A stretch of 64,000 nucleotides of DNA, from positions 7,050,154-7,114,153 of the forward strand of contig NZ_KI632511.1 of assembly GCF_000504285.1 (NCBI RefSeq), read 5' to 3'. The DNA is from Actinospica robiniae DSM 44927 (GTDB taxonomy: Bacteria; Actinomycetota; Actinomycetes; Streptomycetales; Catenulisporaceae). How positions within the stretch are numbered: position 1 is the stretch's first letter; the number at the start of each line of letters is the position of its first letter. The notes beneath the pieces are model-generated. The model made no database searches. It was not told the origin of the DNA and saw nothing but the letters and a program-made list of their open reading frames with translations. This document shows positions 7,014 to 51,691 of the stretch, one piece after another. The position numbers and the translations under genes are program-made.

Positions 7014-8183
7014 TCAGCGGAACACGCCGGTGTGGCCCAGCGAGTAGCGTCCCGGCTGCGGGTAGACGCACAGCCCGTGCGGCCCGCTGCCCACCGGGAT
7101 GCGCGCCAGCAGCCGTCCGTCGTCGGTGGAGAGCGCGTACACCTCGGAGTTGTAGCGCCCGGAGAGCCACAGCACCTTGCCGTCGGCCGAGACCCCGCCC
7201 ATGTCCGGGCTGGCCTCGCCGGGGATCCTCCACTTCTGCTTCACGACGCGGGTGGCGAAGTCGAACACGCTGATCGTGCCCTCGCCCCGGTTGGTGACGT
7301 ACATGTTCTGCGAGTCGCGGCTGACGTAGAGCCCGTGCGCGCCCAGCCCGGTCTCGATGAACCCGGTGAGCTTGAAGTCGTCGCCGTTGAGTGTCCACAT
7401 GCCGTTCGCGGCCATGTCCGCGATGTACCAGACCGAGCCGTCCGGCGAGATCTTCACGTCCTGCGGCATCGATCCGCTCTTGAGGTTGATCACGCCCAGC
7501 AGCGTGTGCTTGAGCGTGTCCACCTTGAGCAGCGTGCCGGAGAACTCGCAGGAGGCGATGAAGTAGCTGCCGTCCGGCGAGAAGTCCGCGTGGTTGACCC
7601 CCGCGCAGGGCACGTCCAGCGCCTGCTGCACCGCCATCGTGTGCGGGTCGCGGAAGACGATCTGCTTGTCCTGCTCGGCCATGACCACCGCGGACTTGCC
7701 GTCCGGGGTGAAGTAGAGGTTGTACGGGTCGTGCACGGACACCGGCGTGCCGAACTGCCCGGTGGCCGGGTCGATCGGGGTGAGCGTGTTGCCCTTGTCG
7801 TTGTTGACCCACAGGGTCTTGAGATCCCAGCCCGGCACCACGTGCTGCGGCTGCTCGCCGACCGGCACCGTGCGGATCACCTTGTAGGTCTTCGGGTCGA
7901 TCACCGTCACGGTGTCGGACTCGCTGTTGGGCACGTAGATCAGCGAGGGGAAGTCGCGCACGACCGGCGAGAGCTCGTTCGGCCGGTCGTAGGCGTAGAG
8001 GTCCTTCGGGTCGTACTCGGGCATGCCGGCGATGGCGGCGGCCCGCATCTGCACCCCCGGAGCCGCGGCCGACCTGCCGACGGCCGCGGACGGGCCGGAC
8101 CCGAGCGTGTTGAGGGCGTAGATCACGGCCACGGTCGCTACGGCGCCCGCACCGAGGAAGAGACGACGTGAGGTGGTCTTCAC
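7014..8183 (-). CDS. Exported YVTN/YncE-type beta-propeller protein
   Basis: 389 residues. N-terminus MKTTSRRLFLGAGAVATVAV is a likely twin-arginine (SRRLFLG) signal or signal anchor, so the protein works outside the membrane. The body holds six to seven repeats of the YVTN/lactonase propeller type (IYVPNSESDTVTVIDPKT, LWVNNDKGNTLTPIDPAT, MYVTNRGEGTISVFDFAT). No enzymatic motif is visible; such proteins often bind ligands or metals. GTG 8183 is preceded by AGAGG at 6 nt. It lies 57 bp downstream of the deacetylase-like gene in the same direction, so the two are probably one operon of exported proteins. Confidence 0.85.
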   Translation of the reverse strand: MKTTSRRLFLGAGAVATVAVIYALNTLGSGPSAAVGRSAAAPGVQMRAAAIAGMPEYDPKDLYAYDRPNELSPVVRDFPSLIYVPNSESDTVTVIDPKTYKVIRTVPVGEQPQHVVPGWDLKTLWVNNDKGNTLTPIDPATGQFGTPVSVHDPYNLYFTPDGKSAVVMAEQDKQIVFRDPHTMAVQQALDVPCAGVNHADFSPDGSYFIASCEFSGTLLKVDTLKHTLLGVINLKSGSMPQDVKISPDGSVWYIADMAANGMWTLNGDDFKLTGFIETGLGAHGLYVSRDSQNMYVTNRGEGTISVFDFATRVVKQKWRIPGEASPDMGGVSADGKVLWLSGRYNSEVYALSTDDGRLLARIPVGSGPHGLCVYPQPGRYSLGHTGVFR

Positions 8184-24481: not shown

Positions 24482-25681
24482 TTATGGCTGTTCGACGGCA
24501 CCGACGGCTCTCCGTAACGGTACCGCGAGTGTTTCCGGCACCACGCTCTCCACCCGGATCCCCGCGCAGCCGACCCACGCCGCCGCCTCCCGCAACGCCG
24601 TGGCCATCGGCTCCACCGCGCGAGCCTTCTCGAGCGAGACCTGGCGAGCGATCAGAACCTCGCCCCCAGGGGCCCGCTCACGCGCCGGATCGACCCGGCC
24701 GAGCAGCTCGCCGCCGTGCAACAGCGGCATGGCGTAATACCCGTGCACCCGTTTGGCCTTCGGCACGTAGGCCTCCAACCGGTGGCTCAGCCCGAACATC
24801 CGCTCCGTCCGCGCCCGCTCCCAGATCAGCGAATCGAAGGGGGAGAGCAGTGTCGTACGGTGACGCCCGCGCCCGCCGGAAGCCAGGAACTCCAGCGCCG
24901 TGGGCGCGGCCCAGGCCGGCTGGCCCCAACCCTCCACCGCCACCGGCTCGAGCCCCGCCTCGTACGCCACATCGGGGAAGCCCGCGACGTTCGTCAGGCG
25001 GTAGTAGTCGAGCAGGTCCGCGCGCGTGGCCACGCCCAACGCCCGGCCGGCCCGCGTGACCAGCTCAACGTGGCACTGCCGATCCGTCAGCTCGTCATGC
25101 AGTGACTCCGCCGGCAACGCACGTTCCGGCAGGTCGTACACCCGGCGCCAGCCGCGCCGCTCCACGCAGACGACCTCACCGCAGGCGAGCAGGAATTCAA
25201 CCGCCTGCTTCGCCTCGGACCAGTCCCACCAGCCCGGCGTCTTGCGCGCTCCGCCGAGTTCGTTGGTGGTCAGCGGGCCGTCCACGGCCAGCCGCGACAA
25301 CACGCTCCGGACCGACTCCGACCGCGGCGCCATGCCCCACGTATCGTTACGGTTTCGATACGATTTCCGGCGGAAGGCGAAAAGGGGCCAATCCTCCGCA
25401 GGTAGGACGCAAGCCGCGTGGGCCCAGTACTCGAAGGCCCGCGCGGAACCCGGCCCGCGCGGCTCCCAGAAGGCCTGGTGCACCACCGAACGGCCGACCG
25501 CCCCGAGCCGGGCGAACGGCACAAGCTCCTGCGAGCGGGCCAGCACCGAGATCGTGTCGAGCTGAATCGCCCCGAGTTTACGTAGCAGAGCAGGCACGCT
25601 GCGTGAACGTGGCGCTCCGATCAGGCCTTGAGCATGCAGCGCGGCGCGGCGGGCCTCCGCGGCGGTGAGCGTAGTCCCCAT
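24482..25681 (-). CDS. AlkZ/YcaQ-like DNA glycosylase (winged-helix DNA-binding domain protein)
   Basis: 399 residues, HTH_42 superfamily. The family's catalytic Q-phi-D motif is visible as QLD at 40-42 in RKLGAIQLDTISVLARSQ, as in E. coli YcaQ, which unhooks interstrand cross-links and alkylated purines. Three winged-helix units are expected; the substrate-loop region RGWRRVYDLPERALP and the conserved LLSPFDSLIWERARTERMF...HGYYAMPLL are present. An in-frame TTA leucine codon lies twelve codons before the stop (24515-24517). ATG 25681 (MGTTLTAAEARR) is chosen. In Streptomyces, AlkZ protects the producer of DNA-alkylating azinomycin; no such cluster is seen here, so general repair is more likely. 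Confidence 0.87.
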   Translation of the reverse strand: MGTTLTAAEARRAALHAQGLIGAPRSRSVPALLRKLGAIQLDTISVLARSQELVPFARLGAVGRSVVHQAFWEPRGPGSARAFEYWAHAACVLPAEDWPLFAFRRKSYRNRNDTWGMAPRSESVRSVLSRLAVDGPLTTNELGGARKTPGWWDWSEAKQAVEFLLACGEVVCVERRGWRRVYDLPERALPAESLHDELTDRQCHVELVTRAGRALGVATRADLLDYYRLTNVAGFPDVAYEAGLEPVAVEGWGQPAWAAPTALEFLASGGRGRHRTTLLSPFDSLIWERARTERMFGLSHRLEAYVPKAKRVHGYYAMPLLHGGELLGRVDPARERAPGGEVLIARQVSLEKARAVEPMATALREAAAWVGCAGIRVESVVPETLAVPLRRAVGAVEQP

Positions 25682-26003: not shown

Positions 26004-27428
26004 GTGAGCGAGCCCACTATGACCACAGAAGCAGCAGTGCGCACCCCTGCCCCCGTATCCCCGGCCAACATCCCGCCGCGCATCCTCGTCATCGGCGGTG
26101 GTTACGTCGGTATGTACACGGCGCAGCGGATCCTCAAGAACCTCAAGCGCGGCGAGGCGATCGTCACGGTCGTCGACCCCCGCTCCTACATGACCTACCA
26201 GCCGTTCCTGCCCGAGGCCGCGGCCGGCTCCATCGCGCCGCGCAACATCGTCGCGCCGCTGCGCCGGGTCATCAAGGGCCCGAACGCGGAGGTCGTGACC
26301 GGCAAGGTGGTCTCCGTGGACCACACCCGCCGCACCGCGCGGATCGAGCCGAACGCCGGCGAGCCCTACGACCTCGGCTTCGACCAGCTCGTGGTCGCCG
26401 TCGGCTCCGTGCCGCGCACGCTGCCGATCCCGGGCCTGGCCGAGAACGGCATCGGCTTCAAGCAGGTCGAGGAGGCCATCAGCCTCCGCAACCACATCAT
26501 CGGCCAGATCGACCTCGCCGACTCCATCAAGGACGAGGCGCTGCGTCGTAAGGCGCTGACGTTCGTCTTCGTCGGCGGCGGTTTCGCCGGCGTCGAGGCC
26601 ATCGCCGAGATGGAGGACATGGCCCGCGACGTGTGCAAGTGGTACAACCACGTCGAACCCGAAGACCTGCGCTTCCTGCTGGTCGAGGCCGCGGACCGGA
26701 TCCTGCCCGAGGTCGGCCCCGAGCTCGGCGTGTGGACCGCGGAGGAGCTGCGCAAGCGCGGCATCCAGGTCAAGATGAAGACCTTCCTCAACTCCTGCGT
26801 GGACAAGCACGTGGTGCTCTCCGACGGCACCGAGGTGGACGCCTCCACCATCGTGTGGACCGCGGGCGTCAAGCCGAACCCGGTCGTCAGCAGCCTCGGC
26901 ATCCCGCTCGGCCCGAAGGGCCACGTGGACGCCCAGGCGAACCTGCGCGTGACCGGCACCGAGTACGTCTGGGCCGCCGGCGACTGCGCCCAGGTGCCCG
27001 ACCTGTCCAAGGGCGCCGGCAACTGGTGCTCCCCGTCCGCGCAGCACGCGGTGCGGCAGGCCAAGGTGCTCGCGGAGAACATCGTCGCGGCGCTGCGCGG
27101 CAAGCCCGTCCAGGACTACGTGCACAAGCACGTCGGCTCCGTGGCCGGCCTCGGCATCGGCAAGGGCGTGGCGAACGTCTACGGCACGAAGCTGCGCGGC
27201 TGGCCGGCCTGGTTCATGCACCGGGCCTACCACGTCAGCCGGGTCCCCACCTTCAACCGCAAGGTGCGGGTGTGCATGGACTGGGCGCTGGCCGGCTTCT
27301 TCCGTCGTGAGGCCGTGTCCCTGACCGCGTTCGAGAGCCCGCGCGGCGAGTTCACCGAGGTGGCCGTCCCCGCCCCGGCCGCCGTCGCCCCGGCGAAGAC
27401 CGAGGAGAAGGCGCCCGTCGCCGCCTGA
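26004..27428 (+). CDS. ndh: Type II NADH:quinone oxidoreductase
   Basis: 474 residues. Non-proton-pumping respiratory NADH dehydrogenase, membrane-peripheral. FAD-binding GGGYVGMYTAQRIL at about 31-44, NADH-binding VGGGFAGVEAIAEMED at about 190-205, the second FAD motif YVWAAGDCAQVPD, the quinone-side AQHAVRQAKVLAENI, and a C-terminal amphipathic region (KLRGWPAWFMHRAYHVSRVPTFNRKVRVCMDW) for membrane attachment. An Ala/Pro/Glu/Lys-rich tail follows. Starts at GTG 26004 or ATG 26019. Transcribed from its own promoter at a distance; the SanA-like gene follows after 26 bp. Confidence 0.95.
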   Translation: MSEPTMTTEAAVRTPAPVSPANIPPRILVIGGGYVGMYTAQRILKNLKRGEAIVTVVDPRSYMTYQPFLPEAAAGSIAPRNIVAPLRRVIKGPNAEVVTGKVVSVDHTRRTARIEPNAGEPYDLGFDQLVVAVGSVPRTLPIPGLAENGIGFKQVEEAISLRNHIIGQIDLADSIKDEALRRKALTFVFVGGGFAGVEAIAEMEDMARDVCKWYNHVEPEDLRFLLVEAADRILPEVGPELGVWTAEELRKRGIQVKMKTFLNSCVDKHVVLSDGTEVDASTIVWTAGVKPNPVVSSLGIPLGPKGHVDAQANLRVTGTEYVWAAGDCAQVPDLSKGAGNWCSPSAQHAVRQAKVLAENIVAALRGKPVQDYVHKHVGSVAGLGIGKGVANVYGTKLRGWPAWFMHRAYHVSRVPTFNRKVRVCMDWALAGFFRREAVSLTAFESPRGEFTEVAVPAPAAVAPAKTEEKAPVAA

Positions 27429-30612: not shown

Positions 30613-31371
30613 ACGTGACCGGCTCGATTGACGCGCTCAAAATGGCCGTCCGACGTGGACGGGTCGCACGGAACGTTGCGACACTCATCAAGCGGCCGGT
30701 GTATCGGGACTGGAGATCGAGCCGCTCAGCCAGGAAGGCGCTCGGCGGATTCTCGATCTCCCGATGCGCGTCTATCAGGTCGGGCGGACGCGCTATCGGC
30801 ATGGGTGCGACGACCCGCGCGCGTGCGGTGTGAAGTGGCACAAGAAGGCCCGTGCCACGCCCTACAAGCGGCACAAGAAGCGCTGCCCGGTCCGTGTCGG
30901 GACGGCTGCCAGTTCCACGCGCAGCACTGCCCGAAGGGGCTTGGCGGGGCGTGGGCGTTCAAGTTCAAGGAGCCGAGGGGCGCGAAGGCGCGCACGCTGG
31001 CGCTGCCCGCACCGCTGGTCCGTGAGCTCAGAGCGCACTGGCGCAAGCAGAAGAAGCAGCGGGAGGCGGCCGGCGAGGCGTGGGAGGACTGGGATCTGTG
31101 CTTCCCCAACTCCCTGGGCAAGCCGATGGAGCCGCGCGACGACTGGGCGGACTGGAAGTGGCTTATCAAGGCTGCAGGCGTCCGAGACGCGCGGCTCCAC
31201 GACGCGCGCCACACTGCGGCGACACTGCTGCTCGAACAGGGCGTCGATATCAGCGTCGTCCAAGAGATCCTCGGCCATTCCACCTTGGCCGTGACGAAGC
31301 GCTATACGCACGTGACGACCCGGCTCACTCAGGACGCCGCCGCGCGCATGGAACGGGCTCTGTGGACGTAG
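30613..31371 (+). pseudogene. Remnant of a tyrosine integrase (actinomycete pSAM2/phage type)
   Basis: Pieces of one integrase are found in different frames. About 30613-30715: the core-binding end [23 protein letters not shown]. About 30710-30900, shifted: [17 protein letters not shown] then [18 protein letters not shown]...KRHKKRCP, the Cys/His insert seen in Streptomyces integrases. From about 30900, shifted again: [11 protein letters not shown]...[17 protein letters not shown] and the catalytic end [39 protein letters not shown] with Arg II, His and the nucleophilic Tyr. The segment that should carry catalytic Arg I is deleted between the second pieces. The gene is inactive. Its 3' end is 71 bp from the 3' end of the tRNA-Leu gene, the usual place of an integrase next to its attachment site. 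Confidence 0.88.
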
Positions 31372-31442
31372 TTGAGACCATGGGCCCGTTTTTGATCACT
31401 ACGAATAAGCAGATTGATTCACGGGCTGCAGCTCAGGGGCCG

Positions 31443-31525
31443 TGCCCGGAGCGGGATTCGAACCCGCACGGCCTTGCGGCCTGGGAGGTTTAAGCTCCTT
31501 GTGTCTGCCGTTCCACCATCCGGGC
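31443..31525 (-). tRNA. bldA: tRNA-Leu (anticodon UAA), bldA type
   Basis: 83 nt. The acceptor stem GCCCGGA pairs with TCCGGGC, discriminator A at 31443; T-arm GCGGGTTCGAATCCCGC; long variable arm GGCC-GCAA-GGCC typical of leucine tRNAs; anticodon loop CTTAAAC gives anticodon UAA (31492-31490), which reads the UUA codon. CCA is not encoded. In Streptomyces this tRNA is encoded by bldA, and because TTA codons are very rare it gates development and antibiotic synthesis. Whether it has that role here is inference, but TTA codons in this window occur in regulators and accessory genes only. Confidence 0.93.
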
Positions 31526-31566: not shown

Positions 31567-31797
31567 CTAGGCGAAGGCTCGGGCCGCCTTTTGCAGGTCG
31601 TGCTCGTGGACGATGGCGCTGGCGTAGCTGTGGGGGAGGTTGAACTCGTAGCGCAGCCAGTTGACGCGCTCCTCGAAGCGGGTCAGGCCGGGGCCGGCGT
31701 CGACTTCGCGGATCCAGTCGGCGAGGGCGCGGCCGGTGACCTGCGGGATGCGGGCGAGCAGGTTGCGATGGGTTTGGTCCGAGTGGTGCATCGACAT
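31567..31797 (-). CDS. DUF4287-type small protein
   Basis: 76 residues (MSMHHSDQTHRNLLARIP...). The sequence NLLARIPQVTGRALADWIREVDAGPGLTRFEERVNWLRYEFNLPHSYASAIVHEHDLQKA matches the helical DUF4287 domain found alone or fused in actinobacteria; function unknown. ATG 31797 has GGGAG 10 nt upstream. It is transcribed towards the tRNA gene, 41 bp away, in the same direction. Confidence 0.78.
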   Translation of the reverse strand: MSMHHSDQTHRNLLARIPQVTGRALADWIREVDAGPGLTRFEERVNWLRYEFNLPHSYASAIVHEHDLQKAARAFA

Positions 31798-32146
31798 GAA
31801 AGCGTCTCCCAAGGGTGAACCGGGCTACCGGGATGGGGAAATGACGGCTGTCGGGGGCGTGACCGGCCCGTGACTTTGACTGTGCCTGAGCTTCGCTTCG
31901 GTGGCAACCCCCGAGCCCGGGCGAATCGGGGCGGATTCCGAGGTTTCGCGGGGCGGACGGGTGCGGTGAACGGGAGATTCGCGGCTCCTCATCTGCCGGT
32001 TTCGGGGGCGATGCCGAGCTCGTCGTGGGGCGGGCCGGGGGCTTCGGCGACGGCGCGGCGGGTGACTGGGACGGCGGGGGTGGCGTGGTCGTGGCGAGAG
32101 GTGGGGTGGGCGGTGAAAGCGATACCCGGTCGATTAGGCTGGATGG
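31798..32146. other. Divergent intergenic region, DUF4287 gene / TTA-containing gene
   Basis: 349 bp without a credible gene. Apart from the TAGGCT box before 32147 and the ribosome-binding site of the DUF4287 gene, nothing is seen. Confidence 0.5.
32135..32140 (+). promoter_or_regulatory. -10 box (TAGGCT) of the gene at 32147, leaderless
   Basis: TAGGCT ends 6 nt before GTG 32147, the same spacing as in birA, cbs and the cystathionine gamma-synthase gene. Confidence 0.6.
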
Positions 32147-32623
32147 GTGCAAGACGTGGATACGCTGGAGTCGGTCTGCGAGCGACTCGACTCTTTACTT
32201 ACCCGGCTGGCCTCGGCTTATCGCTCACTTCCCGAGTCCAAGCTTGTCGGCCGGCTGCCGGACGGGCGCACGCGCGCGGCGGCGGGGCATGAGCTCGCTG
32301 TGCTCATCGCGACGGCGGCGCAGGGCGTCGAAGACCGCTCGCGGCCGTCGGCGCCTTCTTGGCGGCCGCTGCCTTACGAGGGGCCCTTCGTGGTCGGGGA
32401 CCAGATCGGGGTCACCGGGCACGATCTACTCGCGGCATGCGCGCGGCTGGCTCTGGGACCGGCGGCGGCTCCGGGAGCGGCATCGGCATCGGCGTCAGGA
32501 GAAGTGTCGGCGTCGACGGCGGTCTGGGCGCCGCCGGGGGTGCGCTGCGACCGAACGGGTGTGGGGACGCTGCTGACGCGCGTGCTGACGGCTGCGGAGG
32601 AACTGTCGGGCGGGTTGTACTGA
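32147..32623 (+). CDS. Conserved-looking helical protein of unknown function with a TTA codon
   Basis: 158 residues. N-terminal helices ([30 protein letters not shown]) and a middle segment [20 protein letters not shown] resemble four-helix proteins of the DinB/maleylpyruvate isomerase kind but lack their metal histidines, so no function is given. The C-terminal third has an Ala/Ser/Gly-rich insert. Codon 17 is TTA (32195-32197), just inside the start where the ribosome would pause if tRNA-Leu(UAA) is scarce. It lies beside the tRNA gene and is leaderless from GTG 32147. Confidence 0.7.
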
Positions 32624-32818: not shown

Positions 32819-34039
32819 TCAGCTCAGCCGCTCCAGGATCAGCGCCATGCCCTGGCCGCCGCCGACGCACATGGTCTCCAGGCCGAACTGCTTGTCGTGC
32901 GTGCGCAGCGAGTTGATCAGCGTCGTCGTGATGCGGGCGCCGGTCATGCCGAAGGGGTGGCCGACGGCGATGGCACCGCCGTTGACGTTCAGGCGGTCGA
33001 GGTCGATGCCGAGGTCGCGGTAGGACGGGATGACCTGGGCGGCGAAGGCCTCGTTGATCTCGACGAGGTCGATGTCGCCGATCTCCATGCCGGCGCGCCG
33101 GAGGGCCTGCTTGCTTGCTTCGACCGGGCCGAGGCCCATGATCTCGGGGGACAGGGCGGTCACGCCGGTCGAGACGATCCGGGCGAGCGGGGTCAGGCCG
33201 AGGTCGCGGGCCTTCGTGTCCGACATGATCACCAGGGCGGCGGCGCCGTCGTTGAGGGGGCAGCAGTTGCCCGCGGTGACGGTGCCGTCGGGGCGGAAGA
33301 CGGGCTTGAGCGCCTCGACCGCTTCGAGCGTGACGCCGGCGCGCGGGCCGTCGTCGGCGCTCACGACCGTGCCGTCGGGCGCAGTGACCGGGGTGATCTC
33401 GCGGGCCCAGAAGCCCTCGGCGATCGCCTTCTCGGCCAGGTTCTGCGAGCGCACGCCGAATTCGTCCATGTCGCGGCGGGTGACGCCCTTGATCTGGGCC
33501 AGGTTCTCGGCGGTCTGGCCCATCGCGATGTAGATGTCCGGCAGCTCGCCGCTCTCGCGCGGGTCGGACCAGGTCCCGGCGCCGGCTTCGGCGCGCTGGG
33601 CGGTGCGCTCGACGGCGGTGCCGAACAGCGGGTTGAGCGTGTCGGGCCAGGAGTCCGAGCTGCCGCGGACGAAGCTGGAGACCGATTCCACGCCGGCGCT
33701 GATGAACACGTCGCCCTCGCCCGCCTTGATCGCGTGCAGGGCCATTCGGGTGGTCTGCAGGGACGAGGCGCAGTACCGGGTCAGCGTCGTGGCGGGCAGG
33801 AAGTCGTAGCCGAGCAGCGTGGCGACGACGCGGGCCATGTTGAATCCGGACTCGCCGCCGGGCAGTCCGCAGCCGAGCATCAGGTCGTCGATCTCGCGTG
33901 GGTCGAGTGCGGGGACCTGCTCGAGCGCGGCGCGCACGGCGGCGACGGCGAGGTCGTCCGGGCGCACGTCCTTGAGCGAACCTTTGCCGGCCCGGCCGAT
34001 GGGGGTGCGGGCGGCGGCGACGATGACGGCTTCAGGCAT
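32819..34039 (-). CDS. Acetyl-CoA acetyltransferase / thiolase
   Basis: 406 residues, full thiolase length. Catalytic residues: nucleophile Cys90 in [10 protein letters not shown], His in [10 protein letters not shown], and the second Cys at 391 in CVGGGQG; NEAFA is also present. It forms or cleaves acetoacetyl-CoA or 3-ketoacyl-CoA. ATG 34039 opens [35 protein letters not shown] palindrome lies 57-70 bp upstream, suggesting control by a TetR-type acyl-CoA regulator. The SGNH hydrolase gene ends there, so read-through is also possible. Confidence 0.94.
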
Positions 34040-41232: not shown

Positions 41233-42000
41233 TCAGACGGTCGCGGCTGCCGGGCGGTTCCCGGGGTCCTCGGCGAGGATAGCGGTGAAACGCTCGGCCG
41301 CGGTGGCCAACTGGTCGTCGATGTAGGACTTCACTTCATCGGACAGCGGCGTGTCCGGGCGGGCCGCCAGTTCGCGCATCAACGGGACGAGCGGCGCGTA
41401 TTTGGCGGCCAGCCGGCGTTCCATCGCCTCGTCCTCGGTGTGGATCAGGCCGACGCCGTTGTCGGTGTAGTCGGAGAGTTTCACGACGCGGGCCCACGGC
41501 TGGTGCTCGAGGCTCGCGGCGACGTGCTCACGGTACTGGGTGTGCTTGTCCCTGGCCGGGTCCCATGCCGGGTTGGTCACCGCGCGGATCAGCGCGGCCA
41601 CTCGCGGATTGAACGAGCGCTCGATCACGGCCAGAGCCGCTTCGACCGACCCGCGGGCGCGTTCGGCGTCGGTCGCGAGGGTGGCGAGATCCTTGTCGTG
41701 ATCCTCGACTGAGTCGTGCAGCAATGCCGCGCAGACGACGTCGATATCCGAGACCTGATAGTGGCGGATGATGCGGATCGCTACGCGCAGCACGTGATTC
41801 GCGTACGGCTCGCTCACGCGCTGGTCCTGAGCGTGCAGCAGTAGCGCTAGACGCAGGGCGCGGGCGATCTGCTCCCGGTCCGCCGGCGCGAATCCCTCGA
41901 CCTCCGCGGCGAGCAGCTCGCGCAGACCCGGCAGGCCGTAGCGTGAGGTGACGATGTGGATCGGCATGGCTAACAGCTTCTTGCGATTGAACCGCTCCAT
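41233..42000 (-). CDS. HD-domain phosphohydrolase (RelA/SpoT-hydrolase-like)
   Basis: 255 residues. The HD domain resembles (p)ppGpp hydrolases of the SpoT/MESH1 kind: PYANHVLRVAIRIIRHY, the metal pair in CAALLHDSVEDH, and VVKLSDYTDN with the conserved aspartate. No synthetase domain. Hydrolysis of ppGpp or another nucleotide is expected but unproven. ATG 42000 is leaderless (TACCCT 8 nt before); from this start codon 10 is TTA (41973-41971). If translation begins at MPIHIV (ATG 41967) the TTA codon is avoided. First gene of a two-gene operon. Confidence 0.85.
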   Translation of the reverse strand: MERFNRKKLLAMPIHIVTSRYGLPGLRELLAAEVEGFAPADREQIARALRLALLLHAQDQRVSEPYANHVLRVAIRIIRHYQVSDIDVVCAALLHDSVEDHDKDLATLATDAERARGSVEAALAVIERSFNPRVAALIRAVTNPAWDPARDKHTQYREHVAASLEHQPWARVVKLSDYTDNGVGLIHTEDEAMERRLAAKYAPLVPLMRELAARPDTPLSDEVKSYIDDQLATAAERFTAILAEDPGNRPAAATV

Positions 42001-46376: not shown

Positions 46377-49300
46377 CTAGCTCGGGTTCGGGCTCGGCGG
46401 TGAGACGAGGTATCGCTCGGTCTCGGCCACGTCGAGCGCGGATCCCATACGCCGGTACAGCGCGATCGCCTCCCGCACATGTGCGGCCCCTGATTCCCGG
46501 TCGCCGGTCTCGAGTTCGCACCGGCCGAGTCCGACCAGCGCGGCAGCCTCTTCGCGTGGATGGCGAGTCTCGCGAGCGGACTCGAGGACTTCGCGGTAGA
46601 GCGACAGAGCGGCGGCGGCACCGTCACGAACGTGCGCCAAGACGCAGAGGCCGACCTGGGCCTCAACGCGACAGGTGTGATAACCGCCGTGTCCGCCGGC
46701 CTTGAGGCTCAGGCGCAGCTGCTCGTCCGCGGCCGAGAGCTCGCCTCGGGCGATGTGTGCATAGCCCAGGCTCATCCGCACGAAGCTCTGGGCATACAGC
46801 TGTCCGGAATCGAGGGCGAGGCGTAGTGCGCCGCCCAACTTGGCCATCGCCGCGTCGGGATCGCCGAGCTTGAGATCGATTCGGGCGAGCTCCCCGTACG
46901 CGTAGCTCATGCCGAGCGCGAAGCCCAGCTCCGTGAACTCCTGCAGGGCCTTCTCCAGATACTCCGAGGCCTCGGCGTATTGGCCGCGCAGCATCCGTAG
47001 CCGCCCGAACTCTTGGATGACGCCCGCGGTCGACCGACGCGAGCCGCGAAAGGCCTCGAGCGCTTCGGTGAGCGCCGGCTCGATCTCATCGAACCTTCCG
47101 AGGAAGTAGAAGGCGTGACTGAGGCTGAAGAGCGCGAACCCTCGCAGGGCTGGCTGCCCGGCTTCGCGGGCGTGGTCCATCAGCATCTCGGCGTATTTCA
47201 CGCCCTCTTCGATCCGGCCGGTCTGATTGGCGATGACGGCGAGAGAGTGGAGGACGGGCGCTGCGTCGGCCGGCCTGACCTCGCGGTAGATCTTCAGTGA
47301 TTGATAGGCATAGTCCAACGCGAGCGAGCTCTCTGTTGATACGAAGGCCCAGCTCAAACTCTGCAGAACCTGAGCCTCGCCCAGCCGATTGCCCGACTTG
47401 CGATGGATCTCCAGCGCACGGTTCAGGAAGACGATCGCATCGTCCTGCTTCCCCACGTCGCTGCACGCGCTCCCCAGATCGCGTAGTGCGCAGGCCTCGC
47501 TTTCGGTGTCATCGAAGCGATTGGCGAGCTCCACCGTCTTGAGTAGGAGGTCTGCGGTTACATCCCAGGGTCCGTTGCGACGCAGATACGGGGCCAGGTT
47601 TGCCGAGAGCTCGATTTTCCGTTGCCCATCCAGCGCTTCGTGATTGAAGGCGGCGATGAGGTTCTCGCGCTCGGCTTCGAACCAGGTCTTTGCGTCATTC
47701 GAGTCTTCGACGCCGTATGCCCTGCTAGTGACACGCCTCGGTCCCGGAACCCCGTGGAGCCATAGTTCGTGCGCTGCGCTCGCCGTCTCCACGTAGTAGT
47801 CCAGCAGGCGACTCCGCGCGTCTTCGAGCTCCGTGTCGACCTCGCCCGCTCTGGAGCGGGCATAGGCCCTCAGCAGGTCGTGCAGGTGATACCGACCCGC
47901 TGCGTGCTGAATAAGGAGGCTGTGATCGAGGAGAGAGTCGAGCTGTCGCTCTGCTTCCGCCACGTCCGTGTCCTGCAGGGCCGCCGCGGCGAGCGCGTCG
48001 AAGTCCGGGCCCGGTACGAGACCGAGTCGGGTGAAGAGTTGCTGCTGGTCCGCCGGCAGCACCGCGAGAGAGGAGGCGAAGACACGGGTGATGTCCCGGT
48101 CTTCGTCCTTGAGCAGTGCGAGCGGGTCGCCGTCGGCGCGCAACGACGCCATCAGCGACTCCGGGCTGAGCAACGGCCGGTGGCGCAGACGAGCGCCGAT
48201 GATCCTGATCGCCAGCGGGAGCCGCCCGCACCATTGCGTGAGCTGCCGGGCGGCCGGGTCGTCCGCGTCGACGCGCCCGGGCCCGGCCGCGTTGGCCAGC
48301 AGCGCGAGCGCTTCGTCCGGCGGCAGCGCGTCGAGCCGGAGGAAGTCCGCGTCGTCGAGCGCGGTGAGCTGGTTGCGGCTGGTCACGATGACCAGGCAGT
48401 CGGGCTCGGCCGGAATCAGTGGTTTGATCTGCGCCGGATCGCGCGCGTTGTCCAGCACGACAAGGGTTTTCGTGCCGGCCAAGCGCGAGCGATAGAACGC
48501 CGCGCGTTCCCCCGGCTCCTGCGGGATGGCCTTGGCCTCCACGCCGATGGAGCGCAGCAGGTAGTCGAGCGCGTCCTGAGAACTGACCGGACTGAGGTCG
48601 GCGGAGTGGCCGTGCAGGTCGATGAAAAGCTGGCCGTCCGGATAATGCGCAGTCAGGCTGTGGGCGGCACGTACGGCCAGTGTCGTCTTCCCGATACCGC
48701 CCATGCCGTTGATCGCGGAGACGACGACGGTCGGAGTCGCGGCGTTCTTCCCACGGGCCGTGGCGATCAGAGCCTCAAGCTCCGCCTCGCGGCCGGTGAA
48801 CGCCCTCGTGTCCGGCGGCAGTTGCCGTGTCGGAACGCGTCCCGGGAGCCGCACCGCAGCGGGCTGTCCGGCCGACGGTTGCGGCGCAAGGGAGAGCGTG
48901 GCGTCAGATTGCAGGAGCCTGTCGTGCAGGTCGCGCACGTTCTCGCTGGGCTCGACTCCGAACTCCTCGGCGACGGCATGACGTAAGTTGCGGTAGACGT
49001 CGAGGGCCTCGGCTTGGCGCCCGGCGCGGTACAAGGCGAGCATGAGCTGGCCGTGGAACGCCTCGCGCCAAGGGTGCAGATCAATCAGGGTACGTAGTTC
49101 GCCGATGACCTGGTCGTGCCGGGCCAGGTGCAGGTCGGCTTCGATCCGCCCCTGAATGGCCAGAATCCGCTCCTCGCCGAGTTGGTGGACAGCGGCCGAG
49201 GAATGCAGAGCAGGCACGTCGGCCAGCGGTTCGCCGCGCCACAGCGCAAGCGCCGCGGCGTACTCCTGCGCGGATGCGGCCCAATCGCCGCTGCGGGCAG

Positions 49301-49631
49301 CTTCCGCGGCGGCGGCGCGGCGCTCGGCGAAGACGGCGATGTCGAGCTCGCCATGTTCGACATCGATGATGTAGCCGGGTGGCACGGCCCTGATCCGGCC
49401 GGCGTCCGGGCCGAGCGCCTGGCGCAGGCGCATCAACTGGTTGTAGAGCGAGGTGGTGGCCGAGACGCTGGGCCGATCCCCCCACAGTACGTCGGCCAGC
49501 TCGTCCGCCGAGACGACCTCGTTAGCGCGCAGCAGCAAGGCCGCCAGGAGCGTACGCCGCAGTGTCCCGTTGATCTCGAGCGGCCCCGCCGCGCCGCCCA
49601 CCCCGATCGGCCCAAGCAATGCGAACTGCAC
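46377..49631 (-). CDS. AfsR-like SARP regulator: winged helix-BTAD-NB-ARC-TPR, with a TTA codon
   Basis: 1084 residues. OmpR-type DNA-binding domain at 1-95 (VQFALLGPIGVGG...ADELADVLWGDRP...PPGYIIDV), bacterial transcriptional activation domain at about 100-245, NB-ARC ATPase with P-loop NGMGGIGKTTLA near 308 and a Walker B-like region TLVVLDNARD, then about ten tetratricopeptide repeats (700-1080). AfsR-type proteins activate secondary metabolism genes. GTG 49631 has GGAGGG 7 nt upstream; the 27 codons before it are ignored. Codon 216 is TTA (48984-48986), which in Streptomyces would put synthesis under bldA control. No biosynthetic cluster adjoins it, so its targets are probably elsewhere. 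Confidence 0.92.
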   Translation of the reverse strand: MQFALLGPIGVGGAAGPLEINGTLRRTLLAALLLRANEVVSADELADVLWGDRPSVSATTSLYNQLMRLRQALGPDAGRIRAVPPGYIIDVEHGELDIAVFAERRAAAAEAARSGDWAASAQEYAAALALWRGEPLADVPALHSSAAVHQLGEERILAIQGRIEADLHLARHDQVIGELRTLIDLHPWREAFHGQLMLALYRAGRQAEALDVYRNLRHAVAEEFGVEPSENVRDLHDRLLQSDATLSLAPQPSAGQPAAVRLPGRVPTRQLPPDTRAFTGREAELEALIATARGKNAATPTVVVSAINGMGGIGKTTLAVRAAHSLTAHYPDGQLFIDLHGHSADLSPVSSQDALDYLLRSIGVEAKAIPQEPGERAAFYRSRLAGTKTLVVLDNARDPAQIKPLIPAEPDCLVIVTSRNQLTALDDADFLRLDALPPDEALALLANAAGPGRVDADDPAARQLTQWCGRLPLAIRIIGARLRHRPLLSPESLMASLRADGDPLALLKDEDRDITRVFASSLAVLPADQQQLFTRLGLVPGPDFDALAAAALQDTDVAEAERQLDSLLDHSLLIQHAAGRYHLHDLLRAYARSRAGEVDTELEDARSRLLDYYVETASAAHELWLHGVPGPRRVTSRAYGVEDSNDAKTWFEAERENLIAAFNHEALDGQRKIELSANLAPYLRRNGPWDVTADLLLKTVELANRFDDTESEACALRDLGSACSDVGKQDDAIVFLNRALEIHRKSGNRLGEAQVLQSLSWAFVSTESSLALDYAYQSLKIYREVRPADAAPVLHSLAVIANQTGRIEEGVKYAEMLMDHAREAGQPALRGFALFSLSHAFYFLGRFDEIEPALTEALEAFRGSRRSTAGVIQEFGRLRMLRGQYAEASEYLEKALQEFTELGFALGMSYAYGELARIDLKLGDPDAAMAKLGGALRLALDSGQLYAQSFVRMSLGYAHIARGELSAADEQLRLSLKAGGHGGYHTCRVEAQVGLCVLAHVRDGAAAALSLYREVLESARETRHPREEAAALVGLGRCELETGDRESGAAHVREAIALYRRMGSALDVAETERYLVSPPSPNPS

Positions 49632-49820: not shown

Positions 49821-50237
49821 TCAACGAATGAGCTGGCGCAACATGTCCTGAGTCGGTGGGTCGGTTGAGTACACGACGGTTCCACACATCGCTCGGGTGA
49901 GGAGCACCGTGTAGGCGTTGCGCACGGATGTCGCGAAGTCCTCGCTGGATTTGCTCTTGGACTTCAGCTTGCGGTCGCGACTGGCTTCGCGCACTGCCTG
50001 CCAGGCTCCATCGCGCCACACAAGGTCGTCCCCGACGATGACCCCGGCCCAGTCGTACTCCAAGCCTTGCGCCGTGTAGACGCAGCCCAACTGCTCGAAG
50101 CCGCCCGGAGTCGTGGCCCACAGCAGGCTGGGCGGCACGTCTCCGCGCCTGGTGAGCGACTTCGCGTTCCACGGCCGGTGCCAACCGCCGATCTTGACGT
50201 CGTTCACCAATGTGCCGTCTGCACGGACAGCGACCAT
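49821..50237 (-). pseudogene. C-terminal part of the nuclease-DUF2075 protein, separated by a frameshift
   Basis: In the -1 frame relative to the preceding part. The translation ADGTLVNDVKIGGWHRPWNAKS...TPGGFEQLGCVYTAQGLEYDWAGVIVGDDLVWRDG...VRNAYTVLLTRAMCGTVVYSTDP continues the DUF2075/helicase C-terminal domain without loss, including the YTAQGLEYDWAGVI and LLTRAM blocks. It has no start of its own with a ribosome-binding site. Joined to 50204-51691 by one missing base near 50225. Either a recent pseudogene, an error in the sequence, or a frameshifted translation product. Confidence 0.8.
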
Positions 50238-51691
50238 TTCCAGCAGAATCCGGCGGCCATCCGAGCGGTGCGTCCCTCGGAGATCCGCGCGCGAAGCAGC
50301 TCTTCCATCTGCGCGGGGGACTCGGCGAGCACCAGCCCGAAGGGGTCCTCGCCGGCCCAGTGCAGCGGCGTCGGATCGGCGCGGCCGAGCAGTCGCTTGA
50401 CCCAGGTGTCGTAGCTGAGGCTGCCAGCTCCACGCATGGGGCGGCGTAGTACGCGCGAGGAGAGGGAGACGCTGTGGATGTTTCGTGCGTGCTCTTCGAT
50501 CTGCTGGGCCGAGACGATCTCATTCGGCCGAACCCGCTGGTCGTCGTCGATGAAGAAGACGGGGATCCGCGCCCGGCTGAGCACGATGTCGATGGACTCC
50601 TCTCCTTCGCGCATGGTGCCTGCGCTGTTGATGACGGGGAACTGGGTCAGGCGGTGGGCCTCGTCGACGACGATGAGGTCCAGTGACTTCGGTTCGTGGT
50701 TGCCCGCGAGGGAGTTCAGCGTGGTGAAGAGCTTGCCGTAGCCAGGGGAGTTCTTCTGGAACGTCGTCCTGGACGCCGTGCCGCCGGACACGAAGCGGCA
50801 CTGATAGCCCTTCGCCGCGGCCCATCGGAGCAGGTGCACGGCGATGACGCTCTTTCCCGTTCCCGGTCTGCCCTTGACCAGGAAGACATCCTGAGCTGCG
50901 CCGGTCGGACGCTCGAGGGCTGCGGTGATCTCCGTGAAAGCAGTGAGTTGGTCGTCGACCAGGTTGAACGCCCGTCTTCCGGCGAGGATGTCGCCGAAGA
51001 CCTCCTGCAGGGGAGAGGGCGGAAGCACCCTGCTGTTCGCCAGCTGCTCGGCGGCCTTTGCCGCGGCGTTGCCGACGTCGGTGGTGGAGAGGTGCTTGAG
51101 CAGGTTCTCGCGCAGCACGTCCGGTGTAAGGCCGGTGATGACCTTGCTAAACGGACTGGGCGAGTAATGCGTGACCCACTGGTTCGGCGCGCCGTTGAGA
51201 TTGTGCAGGTAGGCCAGCGCGGAGATCGTGACGTACCTGTTCGAGAAGAGCTCGAGATGCTTGATCAGCCGCTGGCGATTATTGTCCACCTGAACGGCTG
51301 GATGTAACTTCGCTTTCTTATATTGGGGAACGCGGACCTTGGTCGGGTCACCGTCCACTCGGTCGACCGTTTCCCATTGCTTCAGCTCGACCGCGACGAA
51401 ACTGGACTCACCGGTCTTCGGGTGGGCTCCAGCGAGCAGTACGTCGATCGGCGCCGGGTCCAGGCCGGTCAACGCCGGGTCGACGTCGTACTCGATGAAC
51501 ATCTGGACGTGGCCGAGCCCGTAGCTCTGCAGATCCTGGGCGAGCTGAGTCACGCTGCGACGCCAAGACCGGACGTCTCCCGGCGATGCGGGCTTGCGAT
51601 TCACGTGCCGCATTCGGTAGTCGGACCGCAGGTTCACCAGGAAGTGCGGATCGCTCGCGATGCTCTGAGCGGTAGCGCGGTGCAGCCACAT
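50204..51691 (-). CDS. PD-(D/E)XK nuclease-like domain fused to DUF2075 ATPase, N-terminal part; TTA codon
   Basis: 495 residues to a premature stop. N-terminal ~140 residues look like a restriction-type nuclease: IDVLLAG...SSFVAVELKQWE supplies the D-ExK pattern. The DUF2075 (Schlafen group-3-like) P-loop ATPase follows: VFLVKGRPGTGKSVIAVHLL (Walker A), LDLIVVDEAHRL (Walker B), FIDDDQRV. It ends in AAGFCWKWS and then leaves frame; the missing end is at 49821-50237. A TTA codon is at 51305-51307 (AKLHPAV). ATG 51691 is a likely start; the frame is open to 51760. Divergent from the MazG-like gene 164 bp away. Related nuclease-ATPases occur in defence islands. Confidence 0.82.
   Translation of the reverse strand: MWLHRATAQSIASDPHFLVNLRSDYRMRHVNRKPASPGDVRSWRRSVTQLAQDLQSYGLGHVQMFIEYDVDPALTGLDPAPIDVLLAGAHPKTGESSFVAVELKQWETVDRVDGDPTKVRVPQYKKAKLHPAVQVDNNRQRLIKHLELFSNRYVTISALAYLHNLNGAPNQWVTHYSPSPFSKVITGLTPDVLRENLLKHLSTTDVGNAAAKAAEQLANSRVLPPSPLQEVFGDILAGRRAFNLVDDQLTAFTEITAALERPTGAAQDVFLVKGRPGTGKSVIAVHLLRWAAAKGYQCRFVSGGTASRTTFQKNSPGYGKLFTTLNSLAGNHEPKSLDLIVVDEAHRLTQFPVINSAGTMREGEESIDIVLSRARIPVFFIDDDQRVRPNEIVSAQQIEEHARNIHSVSLSSRVLRRPMRGAGSLSYDTWVKRLLGRADPTPLHWAGEDPFGLVLAESPAQMEELLRARISEGRTARMAAGFCWKWSLSVQTAHW

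Follow-up and report, generated by a model that had tools for sequence, protein, structure and literature searches.

TTA codons placed as composition predicts in Actinospica robiniae, and recurrent integration of AICE-like elements in its family at the tRNA-Leu(UAA) gene, a likely orthologue of bldA

Two described systems lie closest to the locus considered here: the tRNA gene bldA of Streptomyces, and the AICEs (actinomycete integrative and conjugative elements) that reside in tRNA genes. AICEs integrated in the 3' ends of tRNA genes are well known, and a long variable arm is usual in tRNA-Leu. According to the accessible part of a study of mycobacterial AICEs (PMC3218068), those found in a tRNA-Leu gene use serine recombinases. 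For bldA, a review, in the portion available (PMC4255298), confines the bldA-adpA link to the Streptomycineae and doubts developmental roles of bldA elsewhere. A 2023 survey, likewise available in part (PMC10327506), gives 51-505 TTA genes per Streptomyces genome, reports that in 64% of Streptomyces species transcription genes are over-represented among TTA genes, and considers TTA possibly relevant in most Actinobacteria. We found no literature on the TTA codon in Actinospica, and our search, for which subscription papers were mostly outside reach, returned no paper naming bldA as an integration site of AICEs or other elements.

The window, by which we mean the whole 64,000-nucleotide stretch of DNA analysed, corresponds to positions 7050154-7114153 of the single 9,918,887-bp contig of the 9.9-Mb genome of A. 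robiniae. An initial annotation of its letters had proposed a bldA-type tRNA, TTA codons in specific genes of the same window and, from the presence of a SARP regulator among these, plausible developmental gating. The features around the tRNA gene are as follows (window coordinates).

31442-31525, minus strand: tRNA-Leu(UAA), likely orthologue of Streptomyces bldA (ARAGORN, Rfam, fold, relatives)
31442-31494, minus strand: 3' part of the tRNA, from anticodon loop to 3' end, counterpart of a 53-bp att repeat of A. acidithermotolerans
30628-31371, plus strand: decayed tyrosine-integrase gene pointing at the tRNA (Pfam Phage_integrase, profile positions 73-169 of 172)
31567-31797, minus strand: gene for a DUF4287 small protein, conserved neighbour (profile match, relatives)
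32147-32623, plus strand: small conserved gene with TTA as codon 17, conserved neighbour (relatives)
32819-34039, minus strand: thiolase gene, conserved neighbour of the tRNA locus (profile match, relatives)
26037-27428, plus strand: NADH dehydrogenase-like gene, common to locus L200 of the Streptomyces-like genome G039 and locus L201 of genome G015

The assignment of the tRNA as a reader of UUA is borne out by ARAGORN, which on the minus strand calls tRNA-Leu with anticodon TAA (31442-31525), by the Rfam tRNA model (51.5 bits), and by a cloverleaf fold whose variable arm is long; the gene is one base longer than initially annotated, 31442 and not 31443 being its lower boundary. An Rfam search of the genome found 53 tRNAs, all of which were typed by ARAGORN, and seven of these were called as leucine tRNAs: CAG and GAG twice each, UAG, CAA and UAA once each. 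The UAA anticodon thus occurs in one of the 53 only. A pattern combining anticodon loop and T arm matched seven places in the genome, this tRNA and six others, two of which are tRNA-like places not called as tRNAs by ARAGORN. A second UUA-reading tRNA-Leu, which the initial annotation had named as an observation that would speak against its proposal, was therefore found neither among the 53 typed tRNAs nor at the two tRNA-like pattern matches. As a side observation, three tRNAs with leucine anticodons (GAG, CAG and UAG) are only 74-75 nt long and lack the long variable arm (L182:156-336 and L183:120-194; near 4332100 and 5446530 of the contig, C1), and among the 53 tRNAs UAG-Leu is represented by this short one only. 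One loose match to what we take to be the consensus of a BldD-like box lies at 31873, outside the tRNA gene.

Comparison of 41 genomes, A. robiniae and 40 relatives, returned a match to the tRNA in every one, with only the 3' part present in A. durhamensis. At 28 of 29 returned loci of relatives ARAGORN called the UAA anticodon, and it failed to do so only at that partial copy (L125). Identity to the tRNA is 82-84% in the genus we denote g2 and 77-86% in the Streptomyces-like genus g4, so named from its best adpA matches, which in 25 of 26 genomes are 88-99% identical to the query and in the remaining one 96% over part of the protein. The small gene, the DUF4287 gene and the thiolase gene are common to the four g2 loci compared (L196-L199), to G004 of genus g3 (L195) and to G015 (L201). 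Positional orthology with Streptomyces bldA itself runs through the NADH dehydrogenase-like gene and one Streptomyces-like genome, G039; in both G039 and G015 this gene lies near the tRNA, with the tRNA inverted relative to it. Sequence and neighbours together show a vertically inherited tRNA gene that is likely the bldA orthologue. The small gene has no Pfam or NCBIfam match. The DUF4287 gene shares the strand of the tRNA, precedes it and ends 41 bp from it, so that transcription may read through from one into the other; A. acidithermotolerans has the same gap of 41 bp, against some 340-420 bp in the loci of g2 and g3 that were compared.

Within the window, all five in-frame TTA codons were found where the initial annotation had placed them, with codon numbers that depend on the gene starts chosen.

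24515-24517, minus strand: TTA, codon 336 of 346, AlkZ-like gene (24482-25522)
32195-32197, plus strand: TTA, codon 17 of 158, small gene (32147-32623)
41971-41973, minus strand: TTA, codon 10 of 255, HD-domain gene, only if it starts at 42000
48984-48986, minus strand: TTA, codon 216 of 1084, in the BTAD domain of the SARP/NB-ARC/TPR regulator (46377-49631)
51305-51307, minus strand: TTA, codon 129 of 495, SLFN-g3/DUF2075 gene (50204-51691)
49821-50207, minus strand: 3' part of the SLFN-g3/DUF2075 gene in another frame (profile positions 238-354)

In the HD-domain gene, a second ATG stands at codon 12, after the TTA. The SLFN-g3 profile is split over two frames, positions 2-227 falling in 50204-51691 and 238-354 in 49821-50207, and this gene is therefore frameshifted as sequenced, be it a frameshifted gene or a sequence error. 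Fifty of the 54 called genes of the window contain no TTA, and the small gene was missed by our gene caller; the four TTA genes among the 52 complete called genes compare with 3.1 expected from length and GC3 (GC content at third codon positions).

The small gene and the SARP are the two genes whose TTA sites could be compared, and neither site is conserved. At the place corresponding to codon 17 of the small gene, none of 19 other loci has TTA, several of these alignments starting later so that the place was extrapolated. TTA as such does recur in the gene among the relatives compared (L232-L251): seven of 13 members of the family f1, including one whose gene is truncated at a contig end, hold it, at codon 17, 95, 133 or 137, and in genus g2 six of ten genomes have it at positions other than codon 17; the seven weaker matches outside the family have none. 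Nine of 71 called genes in four g2 loci contain TTA, the small gene included, and this high local rate may explain the recurrence. Conservation of TTA in the small gene was accordingly dropped as a signal, since codon 17 is seen only here and the g2 region is rich in TTA anyway. A TTA column common to SARPs was also considered and rejected; when aligned, the site of the window SARP and that of the L028 SARP do not share a column, and the former is not conserved in seven other BTAD genes of our genome sample.

To place these few genes in the context of the genome, we consider a sample of 120 evenly spaced 20-kb stretches plus the window, which amounts to 2.464 Mb (25% of the genome) at 70.1% GC. 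Genes were called with a codon model of our own that gave no weight to TTA, and of the 2113 genes called, the 1967 not cut by stretch ends were analysed, 146 being dropped; TTA genes may be undercounted, as the missed small gene indicates. None of the 61 sense codons is rarer in the sample than TTA, at 0.178 per 1000, with TTT next at 0.701; TTA is rare because the genome is 70% GC. It occurs in 109 of the 1967 complete genes, from which we extrapolate to about 470 TTA genes genome-wide, a number within the range of 51-505 given for Streptomyces genomes in the available part of the survey (PMC10327506).

Composition and gene length suffice to reproduce how TTA is distributed over genes. A Poisson model using gene length and GC3 only, applied to this genome alone, expects 107.3 TTA genes against the 109 observed, with a dispersion of 1.05, and 7.5 genes with two or more TTA codons against seven observed. 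TTA genes gather at low GC3, 73 of the 109 lying below 0.90 compared with 725 of all 1967 genes, and the synonymous codon CTA behaves alike: the TTA/CTA ratio is 0.173, 0.187 and 0.177 across GC3 tertiles (p = 0.95), and the GC3 slopes of the two codons are -14.2 and -13.6, respectively. Nor is TTA avoided beyond composition: it makes up 121 of 3106 TTR codons, and CTA 680 of 39447 CTR codons. Since a leucine tRNA with the anticodon UAG exists for CTA, UUA is purged from high-GC3 genes no more than a control codon is. The claim that TTA sits in specific genes did not survive this comparison, length and GC3 predicting its placement and CTA tracking it closely, nor, in this sample, did the expected enrichment in regulators and accessory genes beyond composition. 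The opposite pattern that the initial annotation had set against its own proposal, TTA spread evenly over housekeeping genes, is not seen either; genes of high GC3 hardly ever contain TTA, and the same holds for CTA. GC3 may itself follow gene function, so that composition and function are confounded.

Two further aspects of TTA placement deserve attention. Codons 2-20 hold 19 of 116 TTA codons (16.4%) versus 6.1% of all codons. Similar shares are found for AGA (15.7%), ATT (15.0%) and ATA (13.9%), and lower ones for CTA (7.3%, 48 of 655), TTG (9.1%), TTT (9.7%) and AAA (10.7%). By Fisher tests, with p values uncorrected for multiple testing, the 5' excess of TTA stands out against CTA (p = 0.0025), TTG (0.010), TTT (0.035) and AAA (0.049), less so against the pooled AT-rich codons (p = 0.06), and not against ATA, ATT and AGA (p = 0.28 to 0.47); among 1693 high-confidence genes, 16 of 75 TTA codons lie in codons 2-20 versus 12.2% for the pooled AT-rich codons (p = 0.019). 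A real 5' effect of TTA may therefore exist. The last tenth of genes holds 19.0% of TTA, 15.7% of CTA and 17.5% of AGA codons.

The other aspect is gene class. Three of eight sampled SARP genes contain TTA against 1.9 expected from the Poisson null, and we set SARP enrichment aside as not clear; of 34 BTAD places in the genome only eight fall within sampled sequence, which makes this a small test. The 109 TTA genes were scanned with Pfam alongside 109 control genes of matching GC3 and length. The TTA set matched AAA_22 in seven genes, TPR_12 in six, NB-ARC and Trans_reg_C in four each and BTAD in three; the controls matched TPR_12 and NB-ARC in two each, and AAA_22, Trans_reg_C and BTAD are absent from the 25 families listed for them. 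The TTA set matched 184 families and the controls 249. These numbers, small and picked post hoc, hint that the TTA set leans to STAND/SARP-type regulators and to less annotated genes. Seventy-nine genes have an internal TTA, and 20 from the top 23 of these by GC3 were scanned for families. They include an HSP90-family gene (TTA at codon 33), a RipC-like hydrolase, ABC permeases and a SpoIIE phosphatase; none of the 20 is a ribosomal, tRNA-synthetase or other clearly essential gene, and ten have no family match at the cut-offs used.

The adpA gene provides a direct comparison with Streptomyces. Its orthologue in A. robiniae (C1:6457298-6458287, 61% identical) has no TTA, nor have those of G002 (A. 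acidithermotolerans) and G015, and in G004 TTA occurs only upstream of the conserved part; these four genomes were those compared outside g4, ten g2 genomes and G001 (A. durhamensis) being left out. In the Streptomyces-like genus, adpA carries an interdomain TTA in 22 of 26 genomes, a TTA at another site in two, and no TTA in two. The TTA-free adpA of A. robiniae agrees with the restriction of the bldA-adpA link to Streptomycineae as described in the accessible part of the review (PMC4255298).

The second property of the locus concerns mobile DNA. The remnant at 30628-31371 is open over the C-terminal half of a tyrosine integrase, with the 5' part missing or out of frame, and ends 70 bp from the 3' end of the tRNA; its protein is 79% and 82% identical to longer integrases of A. 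acidithermotolerans (L193) and A. durhamensis (L194). In L193, the tRNA (819-902) is followed by a gene for a 447-aa integrase and by excisionase-type, FtsK/TraB-like, DUF2637, NUDIX and regulator-like genes. The last 53 bases of the tRNA recur without change 14,867 bp on and delimit a 14.9-kb element. The excisionase domain (L193:2367-2582) scores above its cut-off, and L193:2695-4467 matches FtsK_SpoIIIE at 37.3 bits (cut-off 24) and the plasmid TraB model at 144 bits, below the cut-off of 800 for that model. No replication gene was recognised among the eight of 14 called genes of the element that were scanned. The repeat starts at position 32 of the tRNA, in the anticodon loop, and the partial tRNA copies of both A. 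durhamensis and A. acidithermotolerans keep the UAA anticodon bases.

In A. durhamensis, L194 carries 56 bases of the tRNA 3' part, without a mismatch to the tRNA of the window, adjoining a 20-aa integrase tail homologous to the window remnant; the far end of the contig holds another integrase, a 428-aa frame whose last residues are replaced by other sequence. We infer that a younger element was inserted there between the tRNA and an older remnant common to the A. robiniae genome. An intact tRNA-Leu(UAA) was not found in the A. durhamensis assembly. A survey of about 3 kb at 29 relatives' loci, some shortened by contig ends, found an integrase of this family beside the tRNA in A. acidithermotolerans and scars of 38 aa in G004 (g3) and 46 aa in G010 (g2), and detected no trace in the other 26 loci (G001, nine g2, 15 Streptomyces-like genomes and G015); G001 is counted among these 26, yet its 20-aa tail was seen separately. 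Traces thus exist in three of three Actinospica genomes, the one g3 genome and one of ten g2 genomes. A second att copy was not found in the genome of A. robiniae. Judged from these repeats and scars, elements have integrated recurrently at the likely bldA orthologue in the family. We regard this as mildly new, the locus as a tRNA gene being ordinary.

Viral contigs yielded no relatives of the integrase, and plasmid and phage relatives are at most about 41% identical among the matches listed (15 each), with three further records in the 60-80% identity band of the plasmid search. An Actinomadura locus (L255) with a 52% identical integrase has no tRNA within it. In A. durhamensis, two related integrase genes (contigs L253 and L254, integrase end near 7221-7400) are interrupted at the same place by one common stretch of about 180 bp, which runs to both contig ends; the break falls just after the Tyr-Thr of what is presumably the catalytic-tyrosine motif. 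The other junction may be at about L194:4441, following a block (L194:36-4440) with genes for a 360-aa tyrosine recombinase, a 111-aa protein, an 810-aa protein and an Imm21 gene. This sequence is perhaps a transposon that targets integrase genes.

Taken together, we favour, with a probability of roughly three in four, the reading that this is an ordinary sole UUA tRNA, that TTA codons are placed by composition with no firm selected target set, and that the tRNA gene is, separately, a recurrent att site of AICE-like elements. The tRNA would translate rare UUA codons as any tRNA does, and the places of these codons would follow from composition and gene length, with most of them in genes of low GC3; if the tRNA is scarce, UUA genes may be weakly or late expressed. 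The elements have inserted repeatedly at the tRNA 3' part, probably preserve an intact tRNA by bringing their own copy of that part, as the repeats suggest, and leave integrase scars such as that in the window. The competing idea that the tRNA is abundant late, so that UUA in the SARP, the small gene and others delays their translation as in bldA-type gating, draws on a sole UUA tRNA orthologous in all likelihood to bldA and on the rarest codon, as well as on a SARP among the TTA genes, the 5' excess of TTA over CTA, TTG, TTT and AAA, and the enrichment in transcription genes stated for 64% of Streptomyces species, with the wider relevance suggested for most Actinobacteria, in the available survey text (PMC10327506). 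Set against it are the composition null and the parallel course of CTA, which leave the "specific genes" unsupported; SARPs that are not clearly enriched; a TTA-free adpA, together with the doubts about roles outside Streptomycineae voiced in the accessible portion of the review (PMC4255298); the two comparable TTA sites, neither conserved; and a frameshift in one of the listed TTA genes. UUA gating in Actinospica is possible, and the sequence gives no firm sign of it; we consider it unlikely. Somewhat less doubtful, and compatible with the composition reading, is that the tRNA serves ordinary housekeeping and is needed for growth, not dispensable as in Streptomyces. TTA in 109 of 1967 sampled genes (some 470 genome-wide), with core-like genes such as one of the HSP90 family, and with a RipC-like hydrolase and ABC permeases, among those of high GC3, is in keeping with such a role, against which we note that the 20 high-GC3 genes scanned include no clearly essential one and that ten lack a family match.

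As for the integrase, its remnant might lie beside the tRNA by chance, and the lack of a second att copy in the genome would fit; the integrase of A. acidithermotolerans, of the same family, orientation and position at the tRNA 3' end and flanked by perfect att repeats, the att half in A. durhamensis, and the scars in G004 and G010 make such a coincidence extremely improbable. At the other extreme, an AICE lineage might have specialised on the bldA orthologue, with element traffic that could tune or interrupt UUA decoding and so tie the spread of the elements to host development. If the crossover occurs at the start of the repeat, each insertion would swap the anticodon and 3' part of the tRNA for the copy of the element. 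We hold specialisation of this kind to be quite improbable. The preferred reading, an ordinary UUA tRNA that happens also to be an att site, separates having a bldA tRNA from using UUA as a switch. The comparison of TTA with CTA at matched GC3 shows that rarity of the codon and a TTA-bearing SARP do not by themselves speak for gating, a point of weight for surveys in which TTA genes are named as bldA targets across Actinobacteria. The locus also offers a case of mobile DNA repeatedly inserting in one particular tRNA gene, and a possible vector integration site for Actinospica.

Returning to the described systems, the locus resembles bldA of Streptomyces in the sole UUA-reading tRNA, in the rarest codon, in a probably orthologous sequence and in one neighbour gene common with a Streptomyces-like genome. 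It differs in an adpA without TTA, as opposed to the interdomain TTA of 22 of the 26 Streptomyces-like genomes, and in a TTA placement that matches composition. With AICEs in tRNA genes it has in common a tyrosine integrase beside the tRNA, excisionase-type and FtsK/TraB-like genes, and direct repeats of the tRNA 3' end; the target here is, in contrast, the UUA-reading tRNA-Leu, the repeat starts from the anticodon loop, no replication gene was recognised in the scanned part of the A. acidithermotolerans element, and the window keeps only one att site and a decayed integrase. The mycobacterial AICEs, as far as the accessible text describes them (PMC3218068), likewise occupy a tRNA-Leu gene, whereas the integrases here are tyrosine recombinases.
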